Shown piece by piece: positions 217-19,422 of a stretch of DNA of 64,000 nt. The position numbers and the translations under genes were made by a program. This stretch comes from Phytoamicus setariae (GTDB lineage Bacteria; Pseudomonadota; Alphaproteobacteria; Rhizobiales; Rhizobiaceae). Position 1 is the stretch's first letter. Each line of letters starts with the position of its first letter. The stretch covers positions 186,001 to 250,000 of the forward strand of contig NZ_JAEQNC010000007.1 in assembly GCF_016722925.1 (NCBI RefSeq), read 5' to 3'. The notes under the pieces were generated by a model that worked only from the letters and a program-made list of their open reading frames with translations, did not search any database and was not told the DNA's origin.

Positions 217-315
217 GGAACCACCGGAAAAAGTACAAGCGATTTTGCAATTCTGTGCATGGAGCGAACGGAATGCAAGGCTTATCATTCGCCGAAATTT
301 GAATGGAGGAGTACT

Positions 316-1890: not shown

Positions 1891-2403
1891 ATGGAGGAGG
1901 CAGTTTCCAAGACCGAGTTTCGCGATGCCATGGCGCGTGTCTGCGCGCCAGTCAACGTGATCACCACGAATGGCCCGGCGGGACGCGGCGGGTTTACCGC
2001 TACCGCCATGTGCAGCGTCACCGACGAGCCGCCGACGCTGCTCGTCTGCATGAACGGCAAATCGGCGCAATGCGGCCTGTTTCTCGAAAACCGCCGCTTC
2101 TGCGTCAATGTGCTGGCGCAGGACCACCAGGAACTGGCCGGCTATTTTGCCGGCCGCCAGGCGGACATGGCGGCGCGCTATGCAGCAGCCGAATGGGTCG
2201 ATATGCCCTCGGGCAGCCAGGCACTGGCCGGCGCCATGGTCTCGCTCGACTGCCGCCTGACGGAGGCGCGGCTGGTGGGCACCCACCACATCTTCATCGG
2301 CCAGGTTATCGGCATCCGTTCAAGGGCGGACGGCAACGCGCTGCTCTATTTCGACCGGAGCTACATCAACGTCCCGACGCAAGTGGGGAGTTTCGGCGGG
2401 TAA
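1891..2403 (+). CDS. hpaC: Flavin reductase partner of HpaB
   Basis: This 170-residue protein of the flavin reductase (FMN-binding split-barrel) family supplies reduced flavin from NAD(P)H to the HpaB oxygenase. The segment GFTATAMCSVTDEPPTLLVC is the flavin-binding signature of the family, followed by FCVNVLAQDHQELAGYFAG. It sits 12 bases after hpaB and is clearly in the same transcript, which ends at the hairpin at 2440-2466. Length and domain content are normal for HpaC. Without the neighbour it could only be called a short-chain flavin reductase. Confidence 0.9.
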   Translation: MEEAVSKTEFRDAMARVCAPVNVITTNGPAGRGGFTATAMCSVTDEPPTLLVCMNGKSAQCGLFLENRRFCVNVLAQDHQELAGYFAGRQADMAARYAAAEWVDMPSGSQALAGAMVSLDCRLTEARLVGTHHIFIGQVIGIRSRADGNALLYFDRSYINVPTQVGSFGG

Positions 2404-3100: not shown

Positions 3101-4279
3101 CTAAAACGCGACCTCCAGCGATACCGGCGCGCGGAATTCCCATCCTCTGAAGCGCACCGGTTTTTCGTCCGCAAGCCTGATATCGGGCACGTTGTCGATC
3201 AGATAACGAAGGGCCACGGTGATCTGCTGGCGGGCAAACCAGCGGCCGGCGCAGAAGTGGTGACCGAAGCCGAAGGCAGCATGATTGCCCTCGTTTCGAT
3301 GCAGATTGAAACGGCCCGGCTGGCTGAATCGGCTTTCGCAATGTGAGGCGGAGGCCAGAACCGCGGCAACCGGCTGGTTGGCGGGAATCGTCACGCCGCC
3401 GATTTCCACATCCCGCGTCGTCTGCCGTGTCTGGGTGCCGATCGGCGTCACCCAGCGCAAGCCCTCGTCGACCGCGCGCGGCAGCAGCTTGTCCATCTCT
3501 GCCTTGACCTCGGCGAATTGATCGGGATTTTGCAGCAGTCCCGCCATGATCGAGCCGGCGCCATGGCCCGGCTCCTGCATGCCGCCCAGCAACATGACTT
3601 TCAATGTCGGCAGAAGGAACGGAAAGGGACGGGTTTCGCCCACCGCCATGCCATCATGCAACATGTGGGACAGCGCGGAATCGTCGGGCTCCCTGCTCAA
3701 GCGTTCCATCACCGGCGTGACGATTTCGGTAATCTCAGCGCTGATCTCATCGGCAATCTTTTGCCGTTCCGGATCGCATTCGAAATTGATCGCGCCCTGT
3801 GCCAGCCCGAAGAACCAGCGGCGGAGCGTGTCGAGATCGACATCGCCAAGACCAAGCGAACGGGTCAGGCTGAGGATAGAGATCGGCTCGAAATAATCCG
3901 ACATCAGATCGCCGCCGCCTTTGGCCCGCAACGCGGAGAGACAGGCGCTGGCGATCGGCATGACCAGATCGTCCATATAGGTCGCTACGCGCTTGGGGCT
4001 GTATTTCGGATCGACGCCGCTCCGCAGGCATTTGTGCACCGGTCCATCGGAGGTGAGGATCGTCGGCTTGCCCCAGGTCTTGTCGAGCGGCGAGCTTTCC
4101 ACCTCGGCGGCGAACAGCTCAGGGGTTTTCGACAGATATTCCACGTCCTTGAAGCGGGTTACGAACCAGAGATTGACCGCCGGGATATAAGCGACCGGCG
4201 CTTCCCGCCGCAACCGCTCGTAGATCGGATAGGGGTCGTTCTCCAGTTGCTCGACCGTCACCTCGTCCAAGAATGTCAT
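3101..4279 (-). CDS. Cytochrome P450 with an atypical I-helix
   Basis: This 392-residue soluble bacterial P450 has the haem-binding loop FGFGHHFCAG at 336-345 with thiolate Cys343, and the ExxR motif at 272-275 (EGLR). The I-helix reads LLGGMQEPGHG (231-240) where most P450s have AGxDT, so the usual acid-alcohol pair for proton delivery is replaced. It is the last gene of a minus-strand set APC permease - aldehyde dehydrogenase - P450, 31 bases after the dehydrogenase, and no ferredoxin or reductase gene is nearby. A role in hydroxylating or dealkylating the amine imported by the permease is likely from context; the substrate is unknown. Confidence 0.85.
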   Translation of the reverse strand: MTFLDEVTVEQLENDPYPIYERLRREAPVAYIPAVNLWFVTRFKDVEYLSKTPELFAAEVESSPLDKTWGKPTILTSDGPVHKCLRSGVDPKYSPKRVATYMDDLVMPIASACLSALRAKGGGDLMSDYFEPISILSLTRSLGLGDVDLDTLRRWFFGLAQGAINFECDPERQKIADEISAEITEIVTPVMERLSREPDDSALSHMLHDGMAVGETRPFPFLLPTLKVMLLGGMQEPGHGAGSIMAGLLQNPDQFAEVKAEMDKLLPRAVDEGLRWVTPIGTQTRQTTRDVEIGGVTIPANQPVAAVLASASHCESRFSQPGRFNLHRNEGNHAAFGFGHHFCAGRWFARQQITVALRYLIDNVPDIRLADEKPVRFRGWEFRAPVSLEVAF

Positions 4280-4310: not shown

Positions 4311-5789
4311 TTACAATTGTATCCACGCCGTTTTCAGATCGACATATTTGTCCAGCGCATGCAGCGACTTGTCGTGACCGTTGCCGGATTGCCTGACGCC
4401 GCCAAGCGGCACGGTGTTGTCCGAACCGCCATAGGTATTCACATGCACGACGCCGGCCTTGATGCCGCGCACCATGCGGTGGGCGCGTGAAAGATTGGAT
4501 GTCCAGACCGCCGAGGCCAGCCCATAATCAGTGGCATTGGCGATCTGTAGGGCTTCGGCCTCGGTCTCGAACGGGATGATCGACAGGATCGGCCCGAACA
4601 CTTCTTCCCGCGCAAGCGTCATACCGGGCGTCACGTCGAAGACGGTCGGCTGCATGTAGAAACCACCAGTCTCCTGCATAATCTGCTTGCCACCGGTGCG
4701 AAGCGCGGCGCCTTCCGAAAGTGCCTGCTCGGCATAACCGAGATCCTTCCGGAGCTGTATTTCGCTGGAGATCGCCCCGGCTTCGGTGGTCAAGGCCAAG
4801 GGATCGCCAAGCTTCATGCCAGCTGCGATCTTCGCCACCTTCTCTGAAAATTCCTCGTGAATTGATTTTTCCACCAGCAACCGCGAGCCCGCCACGCAGA
4901 CCTGGCCGGAATTGCGGAAGATCCCGTAAGCCGACACCTTGGCGGCCTGGTCGAGGCTGGGCGCGTCGGCAAAGACTATGTTGGGCGACTTGCCGCCGAG
5001 CTCGAGATAGACGCGCTTGAGGTTCGAGCGAGCGGAATATTCCAGCAGCCGGCGGCCGACAGGGCCTGAGCCGGTAAACGCCAGTACGTCGATATCCATA
5101 TGCAGGCCGAGCGCTTCGCCGCTGACCGCCCCCCTGCCCGTCACGACATTCAGCACGCCTTCCGGCAATCCCGCTTCGGCGCACAACGCGGCCAATTTGA
5201 GCAGCGAAAGCGAAGCGCCCTCTGCCGGCTTCAACACCACGGAATTGCCCGCCGCCAATGCAGGCGCGATCTTCCAGGCACCGATCATCATCGGGAAATT
5301 CCACGGCACGATGGCCGCGATGACGCCGACCGGCTCGCGATGCACGAGGCCGAGCACATTTTCTGCCGTGGGTGCGATCTCGCCATAGACCTTGTCGATC
5401 GCCTCCGCATAGTAGCGGAAGGTGCCGGCCGCACTACCCGGCTCGGCCTTGAGCGCCATCGAAATTTCGGTGCCGTTATCGCGCACGCCGAGCACGGCAA
5501 GCTCCAGTGCGTGTTTCTCGATCAGTTCGGCAATTTTCAGCAGGACCTTTTTGCGCTCTGCGGGCGCGGCTTTCGACCAGCTTCCCTTTTCGAAGGCAGC
5601 ACGTGCCGCCTTGACTGCCAGATCGACATCGTCAGCCCCGGCGTCGCCGATGGTGGTCAGCTTGCAGCCATCGATGGGCGAAATGACGTCCATCGTCGCG
5701 CCGTTGACAGGCTCGCGCCATGTCCCGCCGATGAACAACGACTGCGGGGCGATTGCGAGTGTGCGGAGTTGGTCGATCTTGTCCTGCAT
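4311..5789 (-). CDS. NAD(P)-dependent aldehyde dehydrogenase, PuuC-like
   Basis: This 492-residue protein of the aldehyde dehydrogenase superfamily has normal length. Catalytic Cys298 lies in FRNSGQVCVAGSR, general base Glu263 in LELGGKSPN, and the oxyanion Asn164 in PWNFP. The closest family feel is gamma-glutamyl-aminobutyraldehyde or betaine-aldehyde type enzymes. It lies between an APC permease and a P450 on the same strand. It is divergent from the IclR-led operon that contains two class III PLP enzymes and a kinase. It is therefore the natural enzyme to oxidise the aldehyde those PLP enzymes release. Substrate identity is inference. Confidence 0.88.
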   Translation of the reverse strand: MQDKIDQLRTLAIAPQSLFIGGTWREPVNGATMDVISPIDGCKLTTIGDAGADDVDLAVKAARAAFEKGSWSKAAPAERKKVLLKIAELIEKHALELAVLGVRDNGTEISMALKAEPGSAAGTFRYYAEAIDKVYGEIAPTAENVLGLVHREPVGVIAAIVPWNFPMMIGAWKIAPALAAGNSVVLKPAEGASLSLLKLAALCAEAGLPEGVLNVVTGRGAVSGEALGLHMDIDVLAFTGSGPVGRRLLEYSARSNLKRVYLELGGKSPNIVFADAPSLDQAAKVSAYGIFRNSGQVCVAGSRLLVEKSIHEEFSEKVAKIAAGMKLGDPLALTTEAGAISSEIQLRKDLGYAEQALSEGAALRTGGKQIMQETGGFYMQPTVFDVTPGMTLAREEVFGPILSIIPFETEAEALQIANATDYGLASAVWTSNLSRAHRMVRGIKAGVVHVNTYGGSDNTVPLGGVRQSGNGHDKSLHALDKYVDLKTAWIQL

Positions 5790-5849: not shown

Positions 5850-7301
5850 TCAGGCTTCCTGCCCCGCGCCGAGCCGCGCAAATCCGGGGGAGTCGGCGGA
5901 TTTCAGCCGTGCTGCAGCGATAAAGCCGATGACAGCTGCGATCACCACCAGACCCGGGAGGAATACCGCCAGGAAGCCGCTCGCGCCGGCAATCGTGCCG
6001 AAATTGGTGGCGATATAGAAAACCAGCGCCAACAGGACCAGGCCTGTGAGAACAGGAAGCACCTTGGTCGCAAGCACGCTGCTTTCCAGGCCCGGATTGC
6101 GGGAGAAGAAAGCCACGATCGCGAAGGCAGTGAACGCCATCAGCAGCATGATCGCCAGAGTACCGACATTGGTCAGCCATGAAAAGAGCGCCAGCACGGG
6201 ATCCTGACCAGTGAAGGCAAAGAGCGCGACGACGAGCACGGCGATGACCGTCTGGATCACCGAGCCGACATGCGGGCTCTGGAACACAGGATGAGTGACG
6301 CCCACCGACTTCGGCAACAGGCCTTCGCGACCAGCAACATACATGTAGCGGGCAACGCCGTTGTGGAAGGCAAGCACGCCGGCAAACAGGCTGGTGACGA
6401 ACAGCACGTTCATGGTGACGACGATCCAGTGGCCCACATAACGGTCGGCAAGGCCGAACAGGAAGGTGGTGGGATCAGCAAGGCCCTGCAGTTCCGGCAC
6501 CAGCTTGTCGACGCCGGCACCGTTGACCATCAGCCATGAGGTCAGCATGTAGAACAGGCCGATGATCAGCACCGAGATGTATGTGGCGCGCGGCACGGTC
6601 TTGTGCGGCTCGCGGGCTTCTTCGCTGTAAATGGTTGTCGCTTCAAAGCCGATGAAGGCGGCAAAGCAGAACAGGATGCCGACAGCGGGCACACCGCTCA
6701 GAAAGGCTGTCGGCGTGAACGGCGCGGCGGAAATGCCGCTGTCGCCACCCTTGAACAGGATCGCGGCATCGATGATCAGCACAACGAGGTATTCGAGAAC
6801 GACGAGAACCGTCAGCACCTTGGCCGACAGATCGACACGGCGGTAGCCGAATACTGCAACGAAGGCGATACCAATAAAGGTCCAGACCCACCATGGCAGG
6901 TCGAGGCCGATGCCGGCAAACAGACCCTGTGTGGCAGCGCCAAAAAGACCGAAGATGCCGATCTGCATGGCGTTATAGGCGAGAATGGCAACCAGCGCGG
7001 CAGCCCCTCCCATCATGCCGCCGAGACCCTGGGCGGTATAGGCATAGAAGGCGCCGGCATTTCTGATGTGGCGGGCCATGGCCACATAGCCGACTGCAAA
7101 CAGCAGCAGGATTGTGGTGACCAGCAGGAATGTCAGTGGAATGCCCGGACCATTGCCGAGCAACATCGATAGCGGCACGCCGCCGGCGACCGCGGTTAGC
7201 GGCGCTGCCGCAGAAACCACAAGAAAAGTGACGGCGCCGACGCCGAGACTGTTCTTGCGCAGCTGGTTTGCACCGCTGGCTTGTGAAGATGAATTGCTCA
7301 T
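5850..7301 (-). CDS. APC-superfamily amino acid/amine permease
   Basis: This 483-residue integral membrane protein has about 12 hydrophobic segments spread over its length and the APC-family sequence YVAMARHIRNAGAFYAYTAQ near residue 75. It should import an amino acid or amine across the inner membrane with a proton or by exchange. It is the first gene of the minus-strand operon with the aldehyde dehydrogenase and P450, divergent from the IclR gene at 7582, which probably controls both sides. The cargo cannot be read from the sequence. An amine or amino alcohol fits the neighbouring enzymes best. Confidence 0.87.
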   Translation of the reverse strand: MSNSSSQASGANQLRKNSLGVGAVTFLVVSAAAPLTAVAGGVPLSMLLGNGPGIPLTFLLVTTILLLFAVGYVAMARHIRNAGAFYAYTAQGLGGMMGGAAALVAILAYNAMQIGIFGLFGAATQGLFAGIGLDLPWWVWTFIGIAFVAVFGYRRVDLSAKVLTVLVVLEYLVVLIIDAAILFKGGDSGISAAPFTPTAFLSGVPAVGILFCFAAFIGFEATTIYSEEAREPHKTVPRATYISVLIIGLFYMLTSWLMVNGAGVDKLVPELQGLADPTTFLFGLADRYVGHWIVVTMNVLFVTSLFAGVLAFHNGVARYMYVAGREGLLPKSVGVTHPVFQSPHVGSVIQTVIAVLVVALFAFTGQDPVLALFSWLTNVGTLAIMLLMAFTAFAIVAFFSRNPGLESSVLATKVLPVLTGLVLLALVFYIATNFGTIAGASGFLAVFLPGLVVIAAVIGFIAAARLKSADSPGFARLGAGQEA

Positions 7302-7407: not shown

Positions 7408-7428
7408 TCGGTTCACTATTCAAACCGA
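7408..7428. promoter_or_regulatory. Inverted repeat in the permease/iclR divergent region, candidate IclR operator
   Basis: TCGGTT and AACCGA form a perfect six-base inverted repeat with a nine-base spacer. It lies about 110 bases from the permease start and 154 bases from the iclR-type gene. It does not match the classic IclR box, so this is only a candidate. Confidence 0.3.
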
Positions 7429-7581
7429 CGCTTCAAATATAGACTTGCAAATAGAAACGGTTCCTGTCAAGTTATTTCGCATGTTAAGTATCTCGACGCA
7501 TGAGGAAGCGGACTTGACAGGTGGCACCCCTACCATTTCGGAGGCCCAAAGGGCATTCCAGCAGGCGAGGAAACGAGAAAA

Positions 7582-8367
7582 ATGGGAACGATCAGTAAAG
7601 CGCTGACATTACTGGATACGCTGTCGCTCATGCAGAGCGAAGCGGGGCTGACGGAGATTGCCAAGGCATGCGACCTGGATAAGGCCACTGCCCGACGGTT
7701 CCTCGTCGAGCTTGAAAAGCATGGCTTTGTCGAGCAACTGGCCGAGTCGCGCAAATACCGGATCGGCTCTGCCCCCGTTCGCCTCGGACGGATCCGGGAA
7801 GCGTGCTATCCTTTCCTGCGTACGGCAATGCCCTTCGTCAAGCGACTGGTCGAGGAGGTGGACGAGACCGTACATCTTTCCGAATTCACCGGCGGCCGGC
7901 TATCGACCGTGCATGTAGAGGACTCGACCAAGGCGCACCGGGTCTTCGTCGCGGTCGGCACTTTGCTGCCGTTTCATGCCACGGCTTCGGGTCTAGCCTT
8001 CATCTCGTCCTGTCCTGCAGCCGATATCGAGGCCGCCATCTCGGCCCCACTACAAAGTTACACGGACTACACACTCACGGATCCGGCCTCGTTTCGCCAG
8101 AGCATCGAACAGACCCAAGCGGACGGCTACTCGGTCAGCCGGCAGGGCTTGGAGGCGGGTGTAATCAGCACCTCTGCCGCGATCCTCACGCCGGGGGCGA
8201 GGCCCGTCGGCTGCATCACCATTGCGGCCCCCCTTGTAAGAGCCGATGCCGGAAAGGTTCGCGAGCACGGACTCGCCGCAGCTTCGACGGCCAGGAGAAT
8301 TTCAGACGCATTCTTCGGCGCGGACCGGCAAGTCCGGACCGTGCCGCAATCGAGGAGGACGAATTGA
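7582..8367 (+). CDS. IclR-family transcriptional regulator
   Basis: This 261-residue protein has an N-terminal winged helix-turn-helix (about 1-65, with DKATARRFLVELEKHGFVEQ as recognition region) and a C-terminal IclR effector domain. The effector domain shows FHATASGLAFIS and SRQGLEAGVISTSAAIL, typical of the ligand pocket. It starts the plus-strand operon, and its stop overlaps the start of the UPF0261 gene (TGATG). It is divergent from the permease operon, so it most likely senses the pathway substrate or an intermediate and controls both transcripts. Confidence 0.9.
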   Translation: MGTISKALTLLDTLSLMQSEAGLTEIAKACDLDKATARRFLVELEKHGFVEQLAESRKYRIGSAPVRLGRIREACYPFLRTAMPFVKRLVEEVDETVHLSEFTGGRLSTVHVEDSTKAHRVFVAVGTLLPFHATASGLAFISSCPAADIEAAISAPLQSYTDYTLTDPASFRQSIEQTQADGYSVSRQGLEAGVISTSAAILTPGARPVGCITIAAPLVRADAGKVREHGLAAASTARRISDAFFGADRQVRTVPQSRRTN

Positions 8368-9620
8368 TGAGCGTGAATGCTCGAATGCCCCATATACTTG
8401 TGATCGGCACCGGTGACACCAAGAGCGATGAGCTGACCTTCATGGCTGATGTGATCGGCAAGGCCGGCGGTCTTCCGGTCATGATCGATGTCAGCATTCT
8501 CGGCGATCCGGCTTATAGCCCGGAATACACCAAGCACGATGTCGCCAAGGCCGCTGACACGACCATCCAGGCGATTATCGACAGTGGCGACGAGCACTCC
8601 GCCATGGAACTGATGGCAAAGGGGGCTGCGGCCCTCGTGCGCCAGCTCTACGATGTTGGTCAGGTCGACGGCGTGATCGTCCTCGGCGGCTCGTTGGGCA
8701 CGGATCTGGCGCTCGATGTTGCGGCAGTCCTGCCGCTCGGGGTACCGAAATTCGTCATCTCCACCATCGCCTACTCCCACCTCCTGCCACCCGAGCGCAT
8801 TGCGCCGGACCTGATGATGATCCTCTGGGCCGGCGGCCTCTATGGCCTGAACGGCATCTGCCGCTCGGTGCTGTCGCAGGCAGCCGGTGCCGTTGTTGGT
8901 GCAGCCCTGCACGGCCAGAAGCCGAACACCGACAAGCCACTGATCGGCATGACCTCGCTCGGCTCCTCCTGCCTGAAATACATGAAATACCTGAAGCCCG
9001 AGCTGGAGAAGCGCGGCTACGACGTCGCCGTCTTCCACGCCACCGGCATGGGCGGCCGCGCCTTTGAAGCGATTGCCGCCCAGAAGGGTTTCGCCGCTGT
9101 CTTCGACTTCTGCATCCAGGAGGTTTCCAACCATCACAACGGAACCGTCGTGACATCTGGCCCTGACCGGATGGAAAATGCCGGTCGCGCAGGTATACCG
9201 CAGATCGTCGCTCCCGGCGCAATAGACATGGTCGACCTGCCGGCATGGCAGCCCCTGCCCGAACGATTTGCCGAGCGCCCTTATCATGCGCACAACCGAC
9301 TGATCGGCTCGGTGACGACCGATCCGCAAGGGCGTCGCGCCATCGCCCGCGTCATCGGCGAAAAGCTTGCGGGCGCGAAGTCCCCTGTCGCTTTCGTTCT
9401 ACCCACCAAAGGCATTCAGGAATGGGATCAGGAGGGCGAACCGCTCTACGAACCCGAAGCGCTGGACGCCTTCGTCGACGAGATGCGGCGTGCAGCTCCG
9501 GCCTCCGTCATCTTCGAAGAAATCGACACCCATATCAATTCACCCGAATTCTCTGAAACGGCACTCGAAATCTTCGACCGCTGGGTCGCCGAAGGCGTGG
9601 TTCCGGGAGGCCGCCGATGA
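8367..9620 (+). CDS. UPF0261 / Tm-1-like ATP-binding domain protein
   Basis: This 417-residue protein belongs to the UPF0261 (Tm-1-like) family. The N-terminal nucleotide-binding domain starts ILVIGTGDTKSDELTFMADV and has GVIVLGGSLGTDLALDVA around residue 100. The second domain carries VFHATGMGGRAFEAIAA. The start chosen is the ATG at 8367, coupled to the iclR-type stop and preceded by GGAGG; the frame is open further upstream, but that part lies inside the regulator. Biochemical function of the bacterial family is not settled. Its presence in a catabolic operon suggests a ligase or lyase-like role. Confidence 0.85.
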   Translation: MSVNARMPHILVIGTGDTKSDELTFMADVIGKAGGLPVMIDVSILGDPAYSPEYTKHDVAKAADTTIQAIIDSGDEHSAMELMAKGAAALVRQLYDVGQVDGVIVLGGSLGTDLALDVAAVLPLGVPKFVISTIAYSHLLPPERIAPDLMMILWAGGLYGLNGICRSVLSQAAGAVVGAALHGQKPNTDKPLIGMTSLGSSCLKYMKYLKPELEKRGYDVAVFHATGMGGRAFEAIAAQKGFAAVFDFCIQEVSNHHNGTVVTSGPDRMENAGRAGIPQIVAPGAIDMVDLPAWQPLPERFAERPYHAHNRLIGSVTTDPQGRRAIARVIGEKLAGAKSPVAFVLPTKGIQEWDQEGEPLYEPEALDAFVDEMRRAAPASVIFEEIDTHINSPEFSETALEIFDRWVAEGVVPGGRR

Positions 9621-10267
9621 ATTCCCACAAGGCTCTGATCCTCGATTTCGGCGGTGTCGTCACCCGCACGCTGTTCGAAACCCACGACCTTACCGAGAGT
9701 GCCCTTGGGCTGGCGCCGGGAACGCTGAGCTGGCGCGGACCATTCGACCCATCGACCGATCCGCTCTGGGTGTCCATGCAGAACCGCGAGATCACCGAGC
9801 GCGACTACTGGATGACCAGGACAAAGGAAGTCGGCGCGCTGGTCGGCGAAGATTGGCCCGACATGCAGACCTTCGTCCAGCGGGCACGCGGTGCCGAACC
9901 CGGCCTCGTGCTGCGGCCCGAGGCGCGCGCCGCCATCATCAGGGCGAAGGATGCGGGGCTCAAACTCGCCATCCTGTCGAACGAGCTCGACCTGTTCTAT
10001 GGCGTCGAGTTCCGCAAGCGTTTCCCGCTGATCGAGCTGTTCGACGTTATCGTCGATGCGACCTACACCAAGATCCTGAAGCCCGACCCGCGCGCCTACG
10101 AGCTGGTGCTGGGCGAGCTCGGTCTCGATCGCAAGGACTGCGTCTTTGTCGACGACCAGAAGAAGAACATCGAGGGTGCTGAAGCAGTCGAACTGCCCTA
10201 CGTGCATTTCGACGTCACCCGCCCCGCCGAAAGTTATGCCCAGGCACTCAAGATGCTTGGAATATGA
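9617..10267 (+). CDS. HAD-superfamily hydrolase (epoxide-hydrolase N-terminal/dehalogenase-like)
   Basis: This 216-residue HAD subfamily IA protein has the nucleophile Asp10 in ILDFGGVVT. The second Asp of the usual DxD is a Gly, so phosphatase activity is not certain. Motif II is SNELD, motif III Lys is in ILKPDPRAY, and motif IV is VFVDDQKKNI. It overlaps the UPF0261 stop by four bases (ATGA), which shows translational coupling. In a pathway with a phosphorylating kinase and a phospho-lyase it may recycle or clear a phosphorylated intermediate, which is inference. Confidence 0.82.
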   Translation: MNSHKALILDFGGVVTRTLFETHDLTESALGLAPGTLSWRGPFDPSTDPLWVSMQNREITERDYWMTRTKEVGALVGEDWPDMQTFVQRARGAEPGLVLRPEARAAIIRAKDAGLKLAILSNELDLFYGVEFRKRFPLIELFDVIVDATYTKILKPDPRAYELVLGELGLDRKDCVFVDDQKKNIEGAEAVELPYVHFDVTRPAESYAQALKMLGI

Positions 10268-10279
10268 AAGGAAAATCCG

Positions 10280-11638
10280 ATGCGTGAAACCAACTTCCTG
10301 ATCGAAAACAATGCCCGCCACCTTTGGCATCCGATGGCGCACCCGGCCGAAATGCTGGCCAATCCACCGCGCATCATCAATGCAGCTGAAGGCGTCGACG
10401 TCATCGATATCCACGGCAAGAAGGTCCTCGATGCCGTGGGCGGACTGTGGAACGTCAATCTCGGCTATTCCTGCGAGCCGGTGAAGAAGGCGATCCGCGA
10501 CCAGCTCGAAGAGTTGCCCTATTACTCGACCTTCCGTGGCACCACCAATTCGCCGCTGATCGAGCTATCCTACGAGCTCGCCGAATGGTTCAAGGAAGAC
10601 GGGCTGGTGCGCGCGTTCTTCACTTCGGGCGGTTCGGACTCGGTCGAAACGGCACTGCGGCTCGCCCGTCAGTATCACAAGATCAACGGCCAGCCGGAGC
10701 GCACCAAGTTCGTGGCGCTGAAGAAGGGTTACCACGGCACGCATTTCGGCGGCGCATCGGTCAACGGCAACTCGAATTTCCGCCGCAACTACGAGCCGCT
10801 GCTGCCGGGGGTCTTCCATCTTGCTGCCCCCTACACCTACCGCAATCCGTTCAACACCACGGATGCGGCTGAAATCGCTCAGGCGATCGCCCGCCAGTTC
10901 GAAGACGAGATCGCTTTCCAGGGCGCAGACACCATTGCCGCGCTGATCATGGAGCCGGTGCTGGGCGCCGGCGGCGTCATTGTTCCGCACGAAACCTTCA
11001 TGCCGCTGATGCGCGAGATCTGCGACAAGCACGGCATCCTGCTGATCGCCGACGAAGTCATTACCGCATTCGGCCGCACCGGCGCCTGGACGGGTTCGCG
11101 CGGTTGGGGCGTCAAGCCGGACATGATGTCGACAGCCAAGGCCATCACCAACGGCTATTTCCCGTTTGGCGCAGTCATGATTTCCGAGAAGGTCACAGCC
11201 GCTTTCGAAAGCAACAAGAACTCGTTCGGCTCGATCGGCCACGGCTACACCTATTCCGGCCATCCCGTGGGCGCCGCTGCCGCCCTCGCAACCCTGAAGG
11301 AAACCAAGCGCCAAAACACTGCCGCCAACGCTGCTGCACGCGGCGCCGAGTTGATGGCTGGCCTGGAAGGGCTGAAGGCCAAGCACGAGCTGGTTGGTGA
11401 TGTGCGCGGCAAGGGCCTGATGGCAGCGCTCGAACTCGTCTCGGATCGGCAGAAGAAATCGGCCGCCGCCAAGGATGTGGTCGCCAAGGTCTACGACACC
11501 GCCTATGAGGCCGGCGTCATGGTCCGCACCTCAGGGTCCAACGTCATCATCTCGCCGCCGCTCGTCATCTCCGCAGGGGATGTCAGCCGTATCATCTCCG
11601 CGCTAGACGAAGGTCTTTCGGCAGCTGGAGGAAAATAA
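10280..11638 (+). CDS. Class III PLP omega-aminotransferase
   Basis: This 452-residue fold-type I class III aminotransferase has the PLP lysine Lys287 in STAKAITNGYFPFGAV and Asp258 in LLIADEVITAFGRTG, which holds the pyridine nitrogen. The N-terminal HLWHPM and the length fit beta-alanine/diamine:pyruvate aminotransferases. It would transfer an amino group from an amine to pyruvate, giving an aldehyde for the dehydrogenase encoded at 4311-5789. It has a good ribosome site (AAGGAAA) 12 bases after the HAD gene and is followed after one base by the AGXT2L-like gene. The amine substrate is not known. Confidence 0.88.
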   Translation: MRETNFLIENNARHLWHPMAHPAEMLANPPRIINAAEGVDVIDIHGKKVLDAVGGLWNVNLGYSCEPVKKAIRDQLEELPYYSTFRGTTNSPLIELSYELAEWFKEDGLVRAFFTSGGSDSVETALRLARQYHKINGQPERTKFVALKKGYHGTHFGGASVNGNSNFRRNYEPLLPGVFHLAAPYTYRNPFNTTDAAEIAQAIARQFEDEIAFQGADTIAALIMEPVLGAGGVIVPHETFMPLMREICDKHGILLIADEVITAFGRTGAWTGSRGWGVKPDMMSTAKAITNGYFPFGAVMISEKVTAAFESNKNSFGSIGHGYTYSGHPVGAAAALATLKETKRQNTAANAAARGAELMAGLEGLKAKHELVGDVRGKGLMAALELVSDRQKKSAAAKDVVAKVYDTAYEAGVMVRTSGSNVIISPPLVISAGDVSRIISALDEGLSAAGGK

Positions 11639-11639
11639 G

Positions 11640-12923
11640 ATGTCCGACAACAAAGCGTTGCTTGCCAGGCGCGAAAAGCTCCTCGGCAAGAACATGTCGA
11701 CCTTCTATCAGGACCCCGTGCATCTGGTACGGGGCGAAGGTGTCTGGCTCTGGGATGCCGACGGCAAGCGCTATCTCGACTGCTATAACAATGTTCCGCA
11801 TGTCGGCCATTGCCATCCGCGCGTGGTCGAGGTGATCACGCGCCAGGCGTCGACACTCAACACCCATACGCGTTACCTGCACGAGGGTATTCTCGACTAT
11901 ATCGAACGCCTGACAGCGACCTTCGACGACAGCCTCGATACGGCGATCCTCACCTGCACCGGCAGCGAGGCCAACGATATCGCGCTGCGCATGGCCCAGG
12001 CCGTCACCGGCAAGACCGGGGTGATCGCCACCGATCATACCTATCACGGCAACACGGCGGCGGTGTCGCAGCTATCGACCCGCATGCCACCGGTCGGTGG
12101 CTATGGCGGCCATGTCCGCCACGTTCCGGCGCCGGACGGCTATCGTCCGCTCGGCGGCGAACCGGGCGAAGCCTTCACCGATGCCTGGGCGGCCGAGATC
12201 GAAAAGGCCATCGCCTCGTTGCAGCAAACGCCGCATGGTTTCTCCGCGCTGATCATCGATCCCTTCTTCGCCAATGAAGGTTTTCCGGATCTGCCGGACG
12301 GCTTCCTGCAAAAGGCGGCGGCCATCGTCAGGAAAGCAGGCGGCCTACTGATCTGCGATGAAGTGCAGCCGGGATTTGGCCGTACCGGTAACCATATGTG
12401 GGGCCACCAGCGGGCAGGCATCGTTCCCGATGTCGTCACGCTCGGCAAGCCGATGGGCAACGGCCATCCGGTCGGCGGCGTGGTCGCCAATTCGGAAACG
12501 CTGAACGCCTTCCGCAAGGCATTCCGCTATTTCAATACCTTCGGTGGCAACCCGGTTTCCTGTGCGGCAGCCATGGCGGTACTCGATGTCATCAGGGACG
12601 AAAACCTGCTCGAAAATGCCCGGATCGTTGGTGCCTATGCACAGGCAGGGCTGCGCAAGCTCGCGGAGAAGCATGACGTGATCGGCAATGTGCGCGGCAG
12701 CGGCCTGTTTTTCGGAGCCGAACTAGTGCTCGATCAGTCTACGAAGGCACCGGCCACCGAATTGGCAACCACCGTCATCAACGAGATGCGCGAACGCGGC
12801 GTGCTGATGGGCAAGCTGGGTATCCACCAGAATGCCACCAAGATCAGGCCGCCGATGCCTTTCAGCACCGAAAATGCCGATTTCATGCTCTCGACTCTCG
12901 ACGACGTGCTGGCGGGACTCTGA
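11640..12923 (+). CDS. AGXT2L-like PLP enzyme, predicted amino-alcohol phosphate phospho-lyase
   Basis: This 427-residue class III PLP protein has Lys270 in LGKPMGNGHPVGG and Asp240 in ICDEVQPGFGRTG. The N-terminal YLDCYNNVPHVGHCHP and LNTHTRYLHEGILDYIERL closely follow the pattern of ethanolamine-phosphate and 5-phosphohydroxylysine phospho-lyases (AGXT2L1/AGXT2L2), not ordinary transaminases. Such enzymes eliminate phosphate and ammonia from an O-phosphorylated amino alcohol to give an aldehyde. The next gene overlaps by one base and encodes a kinase of the kind that makes these substrates; in some bacteria the two activities are fused. A plain transaminase remains possible. Confidence 0.72.
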   Translation: MSDNKALLARREKLLGKNMSTFYQDPVHLVRGEGVWLWDADGKRYLDCYNNVPHVGHCHPRVVEVITRQASTLNTHTRYLHEGILDYIERLTATFDDSLDTAILTCTGSEANDIALRMAQAVTGKTGVIATDHTYHGNTAAVSQLSTRMPPVGGYGGHVRHVPAPDGYRPLGGEPGEAFTDAWAAEIEKAIASLQQTPHGFSALIIDPFFANEGFPDLPDGFLQKAAAIVRKAGGLLICDEVQPGFGRTGNHMWGHQRAGIVPDVVTLGKPMGNGHPVGGVVANSETLNAFRKAFRYFNTFGGNPVSCAAAMAVLDVIRDENLLENARIVGAYAQAGLRKLAEKHDVIGNVRGSGLFFGAELVLDQSTKAPATELATTVINEMRERGVLMGKLGIHQNATKIRPPMPFSTENADFMLSTLDDVLAGL

Positions 12924-13909
12924 TGTCAAGCATACTTGATGATCTCAAGGCGCGCGCCCGAAAGGCCCTCGCCTGCTGGGCCCTGTCCGAACAGGAGCCG
13001 AAGCTGCTGAAATACCGCGAGAATGCGGTGTTCAGGGTCGAGCTTCCAAACGGCGAAGGTGCGGCGCTGCGCCTGCACCGACCCGGTTACCATTCTGAGG
13101 CGGCACTCAGATCGGAACTTCTCTGGATGGACGATCTTCGTAACAACGGCCTTGATGTGCCGCGGCCTATTCCGGCTGCGGACGGGTCGCTGCTGGTGGC
13201 GCTCGACCGGTCGAATGAACAGTATGCCGATCTCATCGGCTGGGTCGACGGCCAGCAGATAGGCGAGAGCGGCAAACTGCTCGAACATACCGCCGACGAA
13301 TTGGCACGCATCTACCGGTTGGTCGGCGCGTCCATGGCCGAGATGCACAACATCTCCGATCGCTGGTCACCCCCGGCGAGCTTCACCCGAAGCGCCTGGG
13401 ATCGGCAGGGCCTGTTGGGAGAGTCGCCGCTCTGGGGGCGCTTCTGGGATTGCCCCGGCTTGTCCACCGAGGATCGAACATTGCTTGCCGGACTGAGAAT
13501 CGAGCTGCAGCAAAGAATGGACGCGCTTTCAGCTGATCTAGATTACGGCCTGATCCACGCGGATCTCGTGCGCGAGAATGTACTGGTGAATGGCGATCGT
13601 GTGGCTCTGATCGATTTCGACGACAGCGGCTACGGCTACAGGCTGTTCGAAATTGCCACGGCATTGCTGCGGAACCGGCGCGAGCCCCACTATCCGCTGA
13701 TCGTGTCGTCGCTTATCGAAGGGTATCGATCAAAGCGGTCGCTGAGTGACGCGACGCTTGCAAATCTGCCGCTCTTCCTGCTGCTGCGCAGCCTGACCTA
13801 TATCGGCTGGGCGGGAGAGCGATCGGAACTACCCGACGCAGGCGACCGGTTGGCACGGTACATCCGGGATACGCGGGAACTCGCGCAAGCCGTCGAAACC
13901 GCCGGATGA
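12923..13909 (+). CDS. Aminoglycoside-phosphotransferase-fold kinase, predicted amino-alcohol kinase
   Basis: This 328-residue APH-family protein has the catalytic loop HADLVREN at 212-219 (Asp214, Asn219) and the metal-binding IDFDD at 230-234. It resembles hydroxylysine kinase and homoserine-kinase-II-like proteins. Its ATG overlaps the stop of the phospho-lyase-like gene (TGATG), so the two should be made in step. I infer that it phosphorylates the hydroxyl of an amino alcohol, and the lyase then removes phosphate and ammonia. It is the last gene of the plus-strand operon and ends three bases from the convergent hpaR gene. Antibiotic resistance is unlikely in this context. Confidence 0.8.
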   Translation: MSSILDDLKARARKALACWALSEQEPKLLKYRENAVFRVELPNGEGAALRLHRPGYHSEAALRSELLWMDDLRNNGLDVPRPIPAADGSLLVALDRSNEQYADLIGWVDGQQIGESGKLLEHTADELARIYRLVGASMAEMHNISDRWSPPASFTRSAWDRQGLLGESPLWGRFWDCPGLSTEDRTLLAGLRIELQQRMDALSADLDYGLIHADLVRENVLVNGDRVALIDFDDSGYGYRLFEIATALLRNRREPHYPLIVSSLIEGYRSKRSLSDATLANLPLFLLLRSLTYIGWAGERSELPDAGDRLARYIRDTRELAQAVETAG

Positions 13910-13912
13910 CGC

Positions 13913-14392
13913 TCACTGCGTTTCGTTGAAGGTCGCGACCTCGTCGAGCATGTCGAGCAACTGCTCGATCTTGTCACGGCCGAAGCGCTTTTCGAGCCGA
14001 TCGTAGATCAGGCGGCTTTCAGGGCTAACCTCGTTTATGATCGCCATGCCGGCCGGCGTGATCCGGAGCAGGACACGGCGGCCGTCATTCTCGTCCTTGT
14101 GCTTGGTGATAATACCGCGCTCTTCGAGCGAGCGGATGATCCGGGTCAGGCTGGGCGCGAGGATAAAAGCCTTGTCGGCCATCTCCGACGCATCGACAAC
14201 TTCCTGCTCGGCAAGGATGCGGATCACGCGCCACTGCTGCTCGGTCATCTCGTGTTCGGCAAGCATCGGCCGAAAATGGCTCATTACCGCCTCGCGCGCT
14301 CGCAACAGCGCGATCGGCAGCGAACGGCGGGTGTTGCGAGGAAGCAGTGCGTCCTGCTGCAGCTTGGATTTGGCGGAGGATTGTTCGGTCAT
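13913..14392 (-). CDS. hpaR: MarR-family repressor of homoprotocatechuate degradation
   Basis: This 159-residue MarR protein has the HpaR signature RRSLPIALLRAREAVMSHFR, the winged helix at about 55-110 with APSLTRIIRSLEERGI, and DENDGRRVLLRITPAG in the wing. HpaR represses the meta-cleavage genes until the pathway compound binds. I chose the ATG at 14392 because GGAAG precedes it; an in-frame start 17 codons upstream lacks a ribosome site. The gene is divergent from hpaF. The palindrome at 14484-14495 in the shared promoter is the likely operator. Confidence 0.88.
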   Translation of the reverse strand: MTEQSSAKSKLQQDALLPRNTRRSLPIALLRAREAVMSHFRPMLAEHEMTEQQWRVIRILAEQEVVDASEMADKAFILAPSLTRIIRSLEERGIITKHKDENDGRRVLLRITPAGMAIINEVSPESRLIYDRLEKRFGRDKIEQLLDMLDEVATFNETQ

Positions 14393-14483
14393 GACAGTTC
14401 TATCTTCCATTTCACACGGATTTGCAATTGCCCGTTTCACCACGAGAAATCGACGAAACCTCTTGACATCAACCGCGATATCA

Positions 14484-14495: not shown

Positions 14496-14524
14496 ATATA
14501 TAAGAAAGACGCATGGGAGGAACG

Positions 14525-14917
14525 ATGCCGCATTTCACGTTCGAGTATTCGGCCAATCTGGACAACCAGGTTGACTTTGCCGCGCTCTGCCGCGCAGTGC
14601 ACGAGACGATCATGAAGACCGGCCTGTTCGAGCTCGGCGCTGTGCGCGTACGCACCATCCGATGCGACGCCTATGCGATCGCCGATCTCCTGCCGGAAAA
14701 CGCCTTCATCGACATGTCGTTCCGTATCGGCGTCGGCCGCACCAAGGACGAGCGCAAGGCCACGGGCGATGCGATCTTTGCAACTGTTACCGACTTTCTG
14801 GCGCCACTGTTTGCCACGCCGCATTTCGCGCTGACGCTTGAGATCCGCGAGATCGATCCGGATCTCAGCTGGAAGAAGAACGCCATTCACCCAAGGCTCC
14901 GCGCCAAGAGCAGCTAG
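14525..14917 (+). CDS. hpaF: 5-carboxymethyl-2-hydroxymuconate isomerase
   Basis: This 130-residue protein of the CHMI branch of the tautomerase superfamily isomerises 5-carboxymethyl-2-hydroxymuconate in the meta-cleavage pathway. The start is the ATG at 14525, preceded by GGGAGG. It puts Pro right after Met (MPHFTFEYSANL), and the exposed N-terminal proline is the catalytic base in this family. An ATG four codons upstream would block that proline and is rejected. The conserved RIGVGRTKDERKATGDAIF helix follows near residue 75. It is first in the hpaFEDGHI run; hpaE starts 76 bases later. Confidence 0.9.
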   Translation: MPHFTFEYSANLDNQVDFAALCRAVHETIMKTGLFELGAVRVRTIRCDAYAIADLLPENAFIDMSFRIGVGRTKDERKATGDAIFATVTDFLAPLFATPHFALTLEIREIDPDLSWKKNAIHPRLRAKSS

Positions 14918-14993: not shown

Positions 14994-16508
<1,515 letters not shown>

Positions 16509-16565: not shown

Positions 16566-17546
16566 ATGGCTCTGCCGAAACCCAATCTCTACCCCGCCTT
16601 CAACATCGTCCGGCTGTCCCATGTCGAACTCGCCGTTACCGATCTGGCCAAGTCCCGCGCCTTCTATGTCGACACGCTCGGCCTGCAGGTGACGGATGAA
16701 GACAAGGACACGATCTATCTGCGCGCCATGGAAGAACGCGGCCATCACTGCATCGTGCTGAAGAAGTCCGGCAAGGCTGAAGCCCGCGACCTCGGCTTCA
16801 AGGTTTTCTCGGATGAGGACCTCGACAAGGCCGAGCACTTCTTCAAGGGCAAGGGCCTGCCGGTCGAATGGATCGACCGTCCCTACCAGTCGCGGACCTT
16901 CCGCACCCGTGACCCGCATGGCATTCCTCTGGAATTCTATTCGAAGATGGACCGCCTGCCGCCGATCCACCAGAAATACGCGCTCTACAAGGGCGTCAAA
17001 CCGCTACGCATCGACCACTTCAACTGCTTTTCGCCGAATGTCGATGAATCGGTCGCCTTCTACAACGAACTCGGCTTCCGCGTCACCGAATACACCGCCG
17101 ATGAGGAAACCGGTCGCCTCTGGGCCGCATGGACGCACCGCAAGGGTGGCGTGCATGACATCGCCTTCACCAACGGCCGCGGCCCGCGCCTGCATCACAC
17201 CGCCTTCTGGGTACCGACGCCGCTCAACATCATCGACCTGCTCGACCTGATGTCGACCACTGGCTGGCTGGCGAACATCGAACGCGGCCCCGGCCGCCAC
17301 GGTATTTCCAACGCCTTCTTCCTCTACATCCGCGATCCCGACGGCCATCGCATCGAGATCTACTGCTCGGATTACCAGACGGTCGATCCCGATCTCGAGC
17401 CGATCAAGTGGGACCTCAAGGACCCGCAGCGCCAGACGCTCTGGGGCGCACCGGCACCGAAGTCATGGTTCGAGGAGGGCAGCACGTTTGCCGGAACCGA
17501 GGTTCGGGATTCGATCCTCAAGGCCCAGCCAATCGTCGCGCCCTGA
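16566..17546 (+). CDS. hpaD: 3,4-dihydroxyphenylacetate 2,3-dioxygenase (type I extradiol)
   Basis: This 326-residue protein has two vicinal-oxygen-chelate modules. The metal ligands of the family fall at His151 (RIDHFNCF), His210 or 211 (RLHHTAFWV) and Glu264 (HRIEIYCSD). It cleaves homoprotocatechuate next to the two hydroxyls. It is of the Brevibacterium/Arthrobacter HPCD type, not the LigB-type HpaD of E. coli. The ATG at 16566 has GAGGAGG just before it; the open frame extending ten codons upstream is non-coding. A RIME-like repeat separates it from hpaG. Confidence 0.92.
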   Translation: MALPKPNLYPAFNIVRLSHVELAVTDLAKSRAFYVDTLGLQVTDEDKDTIYLRAMEERGHHCIVLKKSGKAEARDLGFKVFSDEDLDKAEHFFKGKGLPVEWIDRPYQSRTFRTRDPHGIPLEFYSKMDRLPPIHQKYALYKGVKPLRIDHFNCFSPNVDESVAFYNELGFRVTEYTADEETGRLWAAWTHRKGGVHDIAFTNGRGPRLHHTAFWVPTPLNIIDLLDLMSTTGWLANIERGPGRHGISNAFFLYIRDPDGHRIEIYCSDYQTVDPDLEPIKWDLKDPQRQTLWGAPAPKSWFEEGSTFAGTEVRDSILKAQPIVAP

Positions 17547-17560
17547 TACTTGGGGCTTCT

Positions 17561-17735
17561 GCCCCTCATCCGGCTGCCGCCACCTTCTCCCCGTAATAAC
17601 GGGGAGAAGGAACGTGTGGTACGCTCCCGGGTCAAATTGAGCGGAATTGAGCGCGGCAAGCGCCAGCGAAGTTCCCTCTCCCCGTTCTTACAGGGAGTGG
17701 GCTAGAGCAACTAAGTTGCTCCCGGGGTGAGGGGC
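17561..17735. repeat. RIME-like rhizobial intergenic mosaic element
   Basis: The 175-bp element is bounded by GCCCCTCA and TGAGGGGC. Inside are a perfect hairpin CCTTCTCCCCG / CGGGGAGAAGG (17583-17610), a second CTCTCCCCG block, and GAGCAACT-A-AGTTGCTC (17705-17721). This matches the known layout of RIME elements scattered through rhizobial genomes. It sits between hpaD and hpaG, so it is transcribed within the operon and may affect mRNA processing or attenuation. Confidence 0.75.
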
Positions 17736-17750
17736 AAAGAGGATCACAAG

Positions 17751-18617
17751 ATGCCGCCAAAAATCGCAAGTTTCTCCACCGCCAAGGGCAAAGGCTACGG
17801 CGTTGTCACCGATAGCGGTATCATCGACCTTTCCGCGCGCCATGGCGAAGTCTGGCCGACGCTCAGAGAGGTGATCGAGGCAGGAGCGCTTAGCCGCCTG
17901 GCCGAAGAGGCCGCAACGATGACGCCCGATCTCGCACTTTCGGACATTCGTTTCGAAATCCCGATTCCGATGCCGGAGAAGCTGATCTGCGTCGGCGTCA
18001 ACTTTCCCGACCGCAACGAGGAATACAAGGACGGCCAATCGGCTCCCTCCAATCCGTCGCTGTTCATCCGCTTCCCTCGTTCCTTTACCGGCCATGACCA
18101 GCCGCTGATCCGCCCGCCGGAAAGCCCACAGCTGGATTACGAGGGTGAAATCGTCATCGTCATCGGCAAGGGCGGGCGGCGCATCCCGGAAGCCGAGGCA
18201 CTCGGCCACATCGCGGCACTGTCGCTGTGCAACGAAGGCACGATCCGCGACTGGGTCCGGCATGCCAAGTTCAACGTCACGCAGGGTAAGAATTTCGACC
18301 GGACAGGCTCGATCGGGCCGTGGCTTGTGCCGTTCACCGATGAGGCGCAGCTCGCCGACATCAAGCTCGAGACCCGCGTCAATGGCGAAGTCCGCCAGCA
18401 GGACCGCACGTCGCGGATGATCTTTTCCTTCCGCAAGATTATCAACTATATCTCGACGTTCACGACACTGGTGCCCGGTGACGTCATCGTCACGGGAACG
18501 CCAACCGGTGCCGGCGCCCGTTTCGATCCGCCGATCTGGCTGAAGCCGGGCGATGTGGTCGAGGTGGAGGCCGACGGTATCGGAATTTTGCGCAACACCA
18601 TCGCCGACGAGGCCTGA
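17751..18617 (+). CDS. hpaG: FAH-family decarboxylase/isomerase of the homoprotocatechuate pathway
   Basis: This 288-residue single-domain fumarylacetoacetate-hydrolase-family protein has the metal site in LDYEGEIVIVIGKGGR (Glu-x-Glu) with the later Asp/Glu, and the C-terminal TGTPTGAGARFDPP. In the pathway it carries out the HpaG steps, decarboxylation of 5-oxopent-3-ene-1,2,5-tricarboxylate and isomerisation. In E. coli HpaG is a tandem of two such domains; here there is one copy, and HpaH follows. The ATG at 17751 lies just after the RIME element. Assignment rests on family and position between hpaD and hpaH. Confidence 0.82.
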   Translation: MPPKIASFSTAKGKGYGVVTDSGIIDLSARHGEVWPTLREVIEAGALSRLAEEAATMTPDLALSDIRFEIPIPMPEKLICVGVNFPDRNEEYKDGQSAPSNPSLFIRFPRSFTGHDQPLIRPPESPQLDYEGEIVIVIGKGGRRIPEAEALGHIAALSLCNEGTIRDWVRHAKFNVTQGKNFDRTGSIGPWLVPFTDEAQLADIKLETRVNGEVRQQDRTSRMIFSFRKIINYISTFTTLVPGDVIVTGTPTGAGARFDPPIWLKPGDVVEVEADGIGILRNTIADEA

Positions 18618-18618
18618 C

Positions 18619-19422
18619 ATGCTGACTTCCGACCAGATCGCCGCCGCCGCATCCGCCCTCGACACTGCCGAGAAGAACCGCCAGCAGACAGGCCTTCTCT
18701 CGCTTGCGCATCCCGGCATGACCATGGATGACGCCTATGCTGTACAGGCTGCCTGGGTGAAACGGAAGATCGATGGCGGCCGCAAGGTGATCGGCTGGAA
18801 AATCGGACTGACGTCGAAGGCGATGCAATATGCGCTCAACATCGACATCCCCGATTCCGGCGTGCTGTTCGGTGACATGTATTTCGATGACGGTGCGGTG
18901 ATCCCTGATGATCGCTTCATCCAGCCGCGCATCGAAGCCGAGATCGCATTCGTGATGAAGGCACCGCTTGACGGACCCGGGGTGACGGTGTTCGACGTGC
19001 TGAACGCCACCGATTACGTGACTCCGGCGCTCGAAATCCTCGATACCCGAATCCTGCGGGTGGACCCGGAAACGAAAAAGGCCCGTACCATCGTCGACAC
19101 GATTTCCGACAATGCCGCCAATGCAGGTATCGTCATCGGCGGCCGGCAGATGCGCCCGGATGCGGTCGACATGCGCTGGATGGGCGCGATCGTCAGCCGC
19201 AATGCCGAAGTCGAGGAAACCGGACTGGGCGCCGGCGTGCTCAACCACCCTGCCCGCGGCATTGCCTGGCTTGCCAACCGGCTGGCCGAGTATGGCGACG
19301 GAATCGAAGCGGGGCAGATCGTGCTGGCGGGTTCGTTCATCCGGCCCATCGAGGCCCGGCATGGCGACACGATTACCGCCGACTTCGGCCCCTACGGCAC
19401 GATCAGCTGCTTCTTTAAGTGA
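18619..19422 (+). CDS. hpaH: 2-oxo-hept-4-ene-1,7-dioate hydratase
   Basis: This 267-residue hydratase of the FAH-like HpaH/MhpD family has the conserved VIGWKIGLTSKAMQ and the metal-binding segment RIEAEIAFVMK. It adds water to 2-oxohept-4-ene-1,7-dioate, making the substrate for HpaI. It starts one base after the hpaG stop, so the two are coupled. The ATG at 18619 is chosen over the open frame upstream, which lies inside hpaG. Confidence 0.9.
   Translation: MLTSDQIAAAASALDTAEKNRQQTGLLSLAHPGMTMDDAYAVQAAWVKRKIDGGRKVIGWKIGLTSKAMQYALNIDIPDSGVLFGDMYFDDGAVIPDDRFIQPRIEAEIAFVMKAPLDGPGVTVFDVLNATDYVTPALEILDTRILRVDPETKKARTIVDTISDNAANAGIVIGGRQMRPDAVDMRWMGAIVSRNAEVEETGLGAGVLNHPARGIAWLANRLAEYGDGIEAGQIVLAGSFIRPIEARHGDTITADFGPYGTISCFFK

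Follow-up and report, generated by a model that had tools for sequence, protein, structure and literature searches.

Kinases and phospholyases that act in sequence on amino alcohols have been described in several settings. Hydroxylysine kinase and 5-phosphohydroxylysine phospho-lyase together make an aldehyde from an amino-acid substrate. The (S)-1-amino-2-propanol kinase of the RMM/aminoacetone microcompartment (structure 6ef6) acts on the substrate class R-CH(OH)-CH2-NH2 that is proposed in the present work; in 1-amino-2-propanol R is methyl, and octopamine has the same skeleton. Aromatic amines are reportedly brought into homoprotocatechuate by the tyramine/dopamine 3,4-dihydroxyphenylacetate catabolon of Pseudomonas putida U, and Cuskey and Olsen, in 1988, are said to have described the catabolism of aromatic biogenic amines by Pseudomonas aeruginosa PAO1 through meta cleavage of homoprotocatechuate, octopamine reportedly being among these amines. 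Here, we describe a putative kinase-phospholyase module embedded in homoprotocatechuate degradation (hpa) genes, found in a 64,000-nucleotide stretch of the 5.6 Mb genome of Phytoamicus setariae (G000:C35:186001-250000; hereafter, the window), the genes of which were read within the first 26 kb or so. We consider it likely that this module degrades an aryl-ethanolamine by way of the hpa pathway, octopamine and noradrenaline being examples of such beta-hydroxylated aromatic amines.

The phospholyase-kinase pair and its gene neighbourhood

A preliminary description of the window had claimed an AGXT2L-type phospholyase and an APH-fold kinase at 11640-13909. The open reading frames, the motifs and their order were as described, with YLDCYNNVPHVGHCHP beginning at residue 45 of the protein encoded at 11640-12923 (hereafter LYASE) and HADLVREN at residue 212 of the protein encoded at 12923-13909 (KIN), the two genes overlapping by one base (TGATG). 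Both family assignments also held, as solved phospholyases and the aminopropanol kinase were the best matches in sequence and in fold.

LYASE, a protein of the class III aminotransferase fold (PF00202), scored 415 bits against A1RDF1 (5g4i) and 367 bits against human ETNPPL (6tor), versus no more than 212 bits for any further solved chain, the next relatives being dialkylglycine decarboxylase (212 bits) and GABA transaminases. Its AlphaFold2 model (mean predicted local distance difference test score, pLDDT, of 86.6, with low stretches at residues 21-25, 51-53, 76-78 and 273-275) matched 5g4i first, with a template-modelling (TM) score of 0.92, and 6tor second, with fold-alignment identities of 46% and 43%, respectively. 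No NCBIfam family exceeded its cut-off among the 25 matches listed, of 69, to LYASE. Residue K270 (LGKPMGNGHP), which we take to be the lysine that binds pyridoxal phosphate (PLP), was invariant in 23 aligned sequences. By these comparisons, the protein is predicted to be of the phospholyase type, as no solved transaminase comes as close to it as the known phospholyases do. Nineteen residues, among them P208, N212, E213, F215 and P216, were kept in at least 90% of the 103 rows of the lyase clade and were common to at most 15% of 19 other fetched lyases. In the sequence alignment, P208 and E213 are also present in A1RDF1 and the other three residues of this group (N212, F215 and P216) are not; ETNPPL differs at all five positions. 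Two more phospholyase-like paralogues were observed in the same genome, at G000:C32:375945-377207 (52%) and G000:C1:245847-247109 (37%), the latter within an open frame of 993 codons that perhaps encodes a fusion protein.

The best sequence, profile and fold match of KIN (structure model with a mean pLDDT of 94.3) was 6ef6, titled 'microcompartment-associated aminopropanol kinase', with a fold-alignment identity of 31%; none of its eight NCBIfam matches was over the cut-off. Residues H212, D214, N219 and D231-F232-D233 were invariant in 23 aligned sequences, and we take these HxD...N and DFD-type motifs to be catalytic. KIN is thus best described as a predicted APH-fold amino-alcohol kinase of the 6ef6 type. 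In five congeners (L010-L014), the lyase was 87-88% identical to that of the window and the partner kinase just 56-61%, so the kinase changes much faster than the lyase. At another locus (L016, G012:C50 near 214710), lyase and kinase matches occupied a single long open frame, except that the final 40 residues of the lyase were read in a different frame, which may reflect a fusion, a frameshift or an assembly error.

Both genes were exchanged together in one congener (G007, locus L044). There, the module and its hpa neighbours were 75-93% identical to those of the window, with the exception of LYASE (63%) and KIN (46%). In quick trees, in which long branches were flagged, the lyase of this congener clustered with L117, L128 and L130 (support of 99) and its kinase with L117 and L130 (support of 97); records L117 and L130 are titled Tabrizicola and Rhodobacter (Rhodobacterales). 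The lyase and kinase of this congener have been replaced jointly, in place, by homologues grouping with those of Rhodobacterales, which suggests that lyase and kinase work together and that the two kinds of pair have the same function.

This exchange bears on another reading, in which both class III proteins would be transaminases of a tyramine or dopamine funnel and the kinase would be unrelated, serving, for example, detoxification. Both PLP proteins of the module do belong to class III, and it is established chemistry that an aminotransferase and an aldehyde dehydrogenase suffice for tyramine. However, the 11640-12923 protein is nearer to phospholyases than to any solved transaminase, a kinase match was kept in 76 of the 80 loci compared below, and the pair was swapped jointly in G007; given the phospholyase matches and this swap, we regard the two-transaminase arrangement as very unlikely.

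The genes of the window were as follows.

310-1878, plus strand: HpaB-type 4-hydroxyphenylacetate 3-monooxygenase oxygenase (TIGR02310, 763.8 bits, below the cut-off of 885.2; start approximate, frame open from 85)
1891-2403, plus strand: HpaC/RutF-type flavin reductase (RutF 184 bits, HpaC 153 bits, both below cut-off)
3101-4279, minus strand: cytochrome P450, accessory (PF00067; relatives in module clusters L147, 64%, and L123, 57%)
4311-5789, minus strand: aldehyde dehydrogenase, ALDH (PF00171; best NCBIfam match PuuC, then BADH and StyD, below cut-off; closest solved protein KauB)
5850-7301, minus strand: APC-family amine/amino-acid permease (PF13520)
7582-8367, plus strand: IclR-family regulator, PcaR/PobR-like (PF01614, PF09339; TIGR02431 below cut-off)
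8367-9620, plus strand: UPF0261/Tm-1-like protein, module-associated (PF06792, PF23189; NF002676, 721 bits, over the cut-off of 556; family scans used 8376-9617, the start at 8367 being read from the TGATG overlap with the IclR gene)
9617-10267, plus strand: HAD-IA hydrolase, phosphatase-like (PF00702; TIGR01509 over cut-off)
10280-11638, plus strand: class III omega-aminotransferase, AT3 (NF005683, 784 bits, over the cut-off of 575; closest solved proteins 6s54 and the omega-transaminase 5lh9)
11640-12923, plus strand: AGXT2L/A1RDF1-type PLP phospholyase, LYASE (5g4i, E 3.8e-123; 6tor, E 1.6e-108; top fold match 5g4i)
12923-13909, plus strand: predicted APH-fold amino-alcohol kinase, KIN (PF01636; 6ef6 top by sequence and fold)
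13913-14443, minus strand: HpaR, MarR-type hpa regulator (TIGR02337, 175 bits, over the cut-off of 121)
14513-14917, plus strand: HpaF-like 5-carboxymethyl-2-hydroxymuconate isomerase (NF011605, 91.7 bits, below cut-off)
14994-16508, plus strand: HpaE (TIGR02299, 780 bits, over cut-off)
16566-17546, plus strand: HpaD, homoprotocatechuate 2,3-dioxygenase (TIGR02295, 432 bits, over cut-off)
17727-18617, plus strand: HpaG-like FAH-family enzyme (TIGR02303, 161 bits, below cut-off)
18553-19422 (start approximate), plus strand: HpaH (TIGR02312, 439 bits, over cut-off)
19439-20242 (start approximate), plus strand: HpaI aldolase (TIGR02311, 417 bits, over cut-off)

The module lies between hpaBC and hpaR-hpaFEDGHI, as first described. 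HpaD, HpaE, HpaH, HpaI and HpaR were over their NCBIfam cut-offs; HpaB, HpaC, HpaF and HpaG belonged to fitting families with scores below the curated cut-offs, HpaC scoring slightly better as RutF. The hpaR gene is convergent to KIN and lies three bases beyond its end. The LYASE/KIN and IclR/UPF0261 gene pairs share one base each (TGATG) and the UPF0261/HAD pair four bases, which suggests translational coupling within these three pairs. Among the neighbours first listed for 7582-13909, the omega-aminotransferase and the IclR regulator were found there, while the APC permease and the ALDH are real but lie outside this interval; that list had overlooked the UPF0261 and HAD genes, as well as the P450 gene just outside. 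P450 genes of the window type (57-64%) were found at varying cluster positions, between the APC and ALDH genes in L147 (at 16.4 kb of the locus) and after the kinase in L123 (at 12.2 kb).

Association of the module with hpa genes

To describe the module in other bacteria, we used three samples. The first, a lyase-profile scan of named genomes, comprised the best 80 of at least 569 loci and, being the best-scoring ones, is tilted to close relatives. Among these 80, the named records with lyases closest to that of the window bear the titles Rhizobiales bacterium, Rhizobium, Ensifer, Shinella and Mesorhizobium. The loci were split into 23 rhizobial ones (lyase identity of at least 80%) and 57 others (62-75%). 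A kinase match was present in the fetched stretch in 76 of the 80 loci (23/23 rhizobial and 53/57 others), and UPF0261, which tracks the kinase-lyase module, in 22/23 and 34/57, respectively.

The preliminary description held that its reading would fail if the module were found mostly away from hpa genes, and the answer to this has two parts. Local hpa genes were present in 35 of the 80 loci, namely 22/23 rhizobial loci and 13/57 others. Some fetched loci are short, so local absence can reflect a cut contig; at the genome level, HpaE was over its cut-off in 30 of the 36 genomes searched among the 45 loci without local hpa genes (all but L088, L091, L092, L118, L124, L128, L132, L134 and L135), and in one of these genomes (G361, L116) HpaE lay 11 kb from the lyase. 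The link decays with lyase divergence.

The hpa-bearing loci fell into 14 neighbourhood types, in a set that includes plasmid and congener loci beyond the 80. The same gene order beside hpa genes elsewhere, for which a search had been suggested, was indeed found: UPF0261-HAD-AT3-LYASE-KIN followed by hpa genes was observed in 26 fetched loci (types of 14, 10 and 2 loci, including congeners G002-G005 and G007), of which L039 and L057, with identical lyases, are probably one place counted twice. In congener G008, the same order was seen up to hpaR. In 12 of the 80 loci (eleven rhizobial ones and L089, a Rhodobacterales bin), the kinase gene led into hpaF and then hpaE on its own strand without an intervening hpaR, the matches being 51-103 bases apart. 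Other arrangements included hpaBC and hpaFED after the kinase (L068, L075) and, in a Granulosicoccaceae bin (L109), a run of hpaE-hpaD-hpaG-hpaH-KIN with the lyase across hpaR. Annotated plasmids of Rhizobium leguminosarum ATCC 14479 and Agrobacterium tumefaciens CFBP7129 carried the module with hpa genes. The Shinella WSC3-e plasmid had an aromatic-amino-acid decarboxylase gene (see below) and no hpa gene within the 25 kb shown, and that of Ruegeria pomeroyi DSS-3 had AT3, ALDH, LYASE, KIN and UPF0261 and no hpa gene within the 31 kb shown. Chance or misread frames were rejected as an explanation, since the gene order recurs across loci. Synteny inherited within one genus was likewise rejected, the records being Rhizobium, Ensifer, Mesorhizobium, Rhodobacteraceae genera and Granulosicoccaceae bins, with varying orders.

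The second sample was drawn from the order of the window, by inference the Hyphomicrobiales, and numbered 297 genomes. Lyase scores split cleanly, with nine genomes at 629 bits or more (at least 67% identity) and the rest at 505 bits or less. HpaE was over its cut-off in 46 of the 297 genomes: 9/9 with the lyase subfamily, the window's own genome included, and 37/288 without it (p = 1.6e-7 with the own genome omitted; one-sided Fisher test, ignoring kinship). It was also found in 17 of the 17 genomes chosen for carrying the subfamily (the nine and eight congeners or family members). Local hpa genes were present at six of the eight non-own subfamily loci (exceptions, L144 and L146) versus none of 12 other-phospholyase loci hand-picked from lower-scoring places (439-505 bits; p = 7e-4), a 36% ALDH-type match to HpaE at one of the 12 being excluded from the count.

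The third sample comprised 244 genomes of the Rhodobacterales (order by inference, from the Ruegeria locus), scored with a Lutimaribacter lyase. HpaE was present in 77 of the 244 genomes overall and, by lyase score, in 10/10 at 660 bits or more, 10/16 at 600-660 bits, 7/16 at 575-600 bits and 2/15 at 500-575 bits. As HpaE co-occurrence tracks the lyase score, the core lyase subfamily is tied to hpa and its outer relatives are not.

Accessory genes and the proposed pathway

Aromatic-amino-acid decarboxylases can make aromatic amines, and a member of this family was found inside the hpa operons of several module carriers, which fits an aromatic amine substrate. The closest solved relative of the Shinella protein was the DOPA decarboxylase 7xin (E 2.2e-116), followed by other aromatic-L-amino-acid decarboxylases. 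The gene lay between hpaD and hpaG in L056, L058, L068, L075, L112, L123 and L140, and adjoined the module in L060 and L074; in the first sample, it was present in 6/23 rhizobial and 3/57 other loci. Orthologues (76-86%) were present in the window's genome and six congeners, and in G008 the orthologue lay about 1 kb from HpaE. No decarboxylase was found in the window's own cluster; the gene of this genome stands apart from the module, at G000:C33:271133-272530 (L162), with no module reference gene detected within 20 kb around it.

These data also bear on a reading in which the pair acts on a non-aromatic amino alcohol (ethanolamine phosphate, 1-aminopropan-2-ol or hydroxylysine) and has hpa neighbours by shared catabolic islands. 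The closest characterised relatives use such substrates, 45 of the 80 loci had no hpa gene in the fetched stretch, and four module genomes lacked HpaE. Against this, the kinase/lyase and hpa genes are joined in differing gene orders, HpaE co-occurs at the genome level, no hpa gene was found at the 12 other-phospholyase loci, and the DOPA-decarboxylase-type gene lies within the same clusters. We regard a non-aromatic substrate as unlikely.

Other accessory genes varied among loci. A LigB-type extradiol gene adjoined UPF0261 in Shinella loci L060, L074 and L140 and on a plasmid recorded as Roseateles XES5 (L141), where the protein was over the HpaD_Fe cut-off. In L046, L078, L082, L094 and L120, UPF0261 stood between dimethylglycine-dehydrogenase (DMGDH)-like and old-yellow-enzyme-like genes, flanks that hint at N-methyl amine catabolism. 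A second P450 type was paired with a glutamine-synthetase-family gene in 11 of the 57 non-rhizobial loci (L109, at 7410-9949, L088, L096, L097, L098, L101, L111, L115, L116, L121 and L128), the latter gene perhaps serving gamma-glutamylation of an amine. In the same sample, a DMGDH-like gene was present in 9/57 and a P450 gene in 13/57 non-rhizobial loci, neither being above threshold in any of the 23 rhizobial loci.

Such genes would fit the same chemistry on an N- or O-methylated aryl-ethanolamine of the synephrine, adrenaline or normetanephrine type, with the P450 or DMGDH-like proteins removing the methyl group. The P450 gene beside ALDH in the window and that in L147 agree with this version, as do the non-rhizobial counts. 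However, methyl removal is read from the family names, and the absence of both genes above threshold from the rhizobial loci makes them look like accessories; a methylated amine as the natural substrate seems improbable to us.

We propose the following steps for an aryl-ethanolamine. The APC permease would import the amine and KIN would phosphorylate its benzylic hydroxyl. LYASE would then form a PLP aldimine with the amine and eliminate the phosphate, and hydrolysis of the resulting enamine would release ammonia together with 4-hydroxyphenylacetaldehyde or the 3,4-dihydroxy counterpart. PLP-dependent 1,2-elimination is the reaction type described for ethanolamine-phosphate phospho-lyase in PMC8154272. 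To judge from the protein families, ALDH would oxidise the aldehyde to 4-hydroxyphenylacetate (or homoprotocatechuate), which would enter the hpa route, where hpaBC and hpaDEFGHI would complete degradation. AT3 would probably feed tyramine or dopamine, which have no beta-hydroxyl and no leaving group, into the same aldehyde.

The preliminary description had raised the possibility of an octopamine-type funnel. Homology, fold and comparative genomics give good support to its kinase/phospholyase/ALDH class and to its direction towards homoprotocatechuate. Good support for aryl-ethanolamines as the substrate class comes from the gene context, which does not distinguish octopamine from noradrenaline, phenylethanolamine or methylated relatives.

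Several points weigh against the aryl-ethanolamine pathway. The scheme leaves the UPF0261 and HAD proteins without a function, ALDH is not clearly of the phenylacetaldehyde dehydrogenase type, its NCBIfam matches being below cut-off, and every activity proposed is a prediction from sequence, fold and context. Outside the rhizobia, hpa adjacency is limited to the 13 of 57 loci given above; in the Rhodobacterales, HpaE co-occurrence drops from 10/10 to 2/15 as the lyase diverges; and the Fisher values overstate independence, because the genomes are related. Four loci (L096, L105, L106 and L107) carry lyase and kinase in genomes without HpaE, where another sink or another product is possible. Two further loci (L102, L108) had neither a kinase in the stretch nor HpaE in the genome. 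Phenylacetate (paa) was rejected as the sink in HpaE-negative genomes, PaaA being present in just one of the six, which is one of the four with lyase and kinase. All four lyase-kinase genomes had hmgA, which says little on homogentisate as a sink, since tyrosine users commonly have this gene.

A fuller version of the aryl-ethanolamine pathway is a real possibility, although we hold it tentatively. Plant-associated rhizobia and marine Rhodobacterales would share a dedicated octopamine/noradrenaline pathway in which ATP primes the benzylic hydroxyl before phosphate is eliminated; in some lineages, a DOPA-decarboxylase-type enzyme would make the amine from a beta-hydroxylated aromatic amino acid, and N-demethylating genes would admit synephrine and adrenaline types, UPF0261 thereby gaining a metabolic context.

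Comparison with known systems

If the aryl-ethanolamine pathway is correct, the module offers candidate genes for the microbial breakdown of octopamine/noradrenaline-type amines, which are invertebrate and vertebrate messengers and are also present in plants. It would place UPF0261 proteins in a pathway where their function could be probed, and would relabel genes annotated as 'aspartate aminotransferase family protein', 'phosphotransferase' or 'homoserine kinase'. The strategy of phosphorylating and then eliminating would cover aromatic amines in addition to small aliphatic amino alcohols.

The system of 6ef6 is a microcompartment, whereas the context in the window is aromatic catabolism; no microcompartment shell protein was found among the window proteins in general family scans, no search aimed at shell proteins having been made. 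For the hydroxylysine kinase/phospho-lyase system, we know of no link to hpa genes. The P. putida U catabolon would need no kinase or phospholyase, because tyramine and dopamine have no beta-hydroxyl, and we know of no genes for the beta-hydroxyl step in P. aeruginosa PAO1. No kinase/phospholyase route for octopamine was found among the listed matches in the open-licence literature (titles and abstract openings). Aromatic amine use via homoprotocatechuate and kinase-phospholyase chemistry are both known, and what appears to be new is the class of substrate to which that chemistry is applied.

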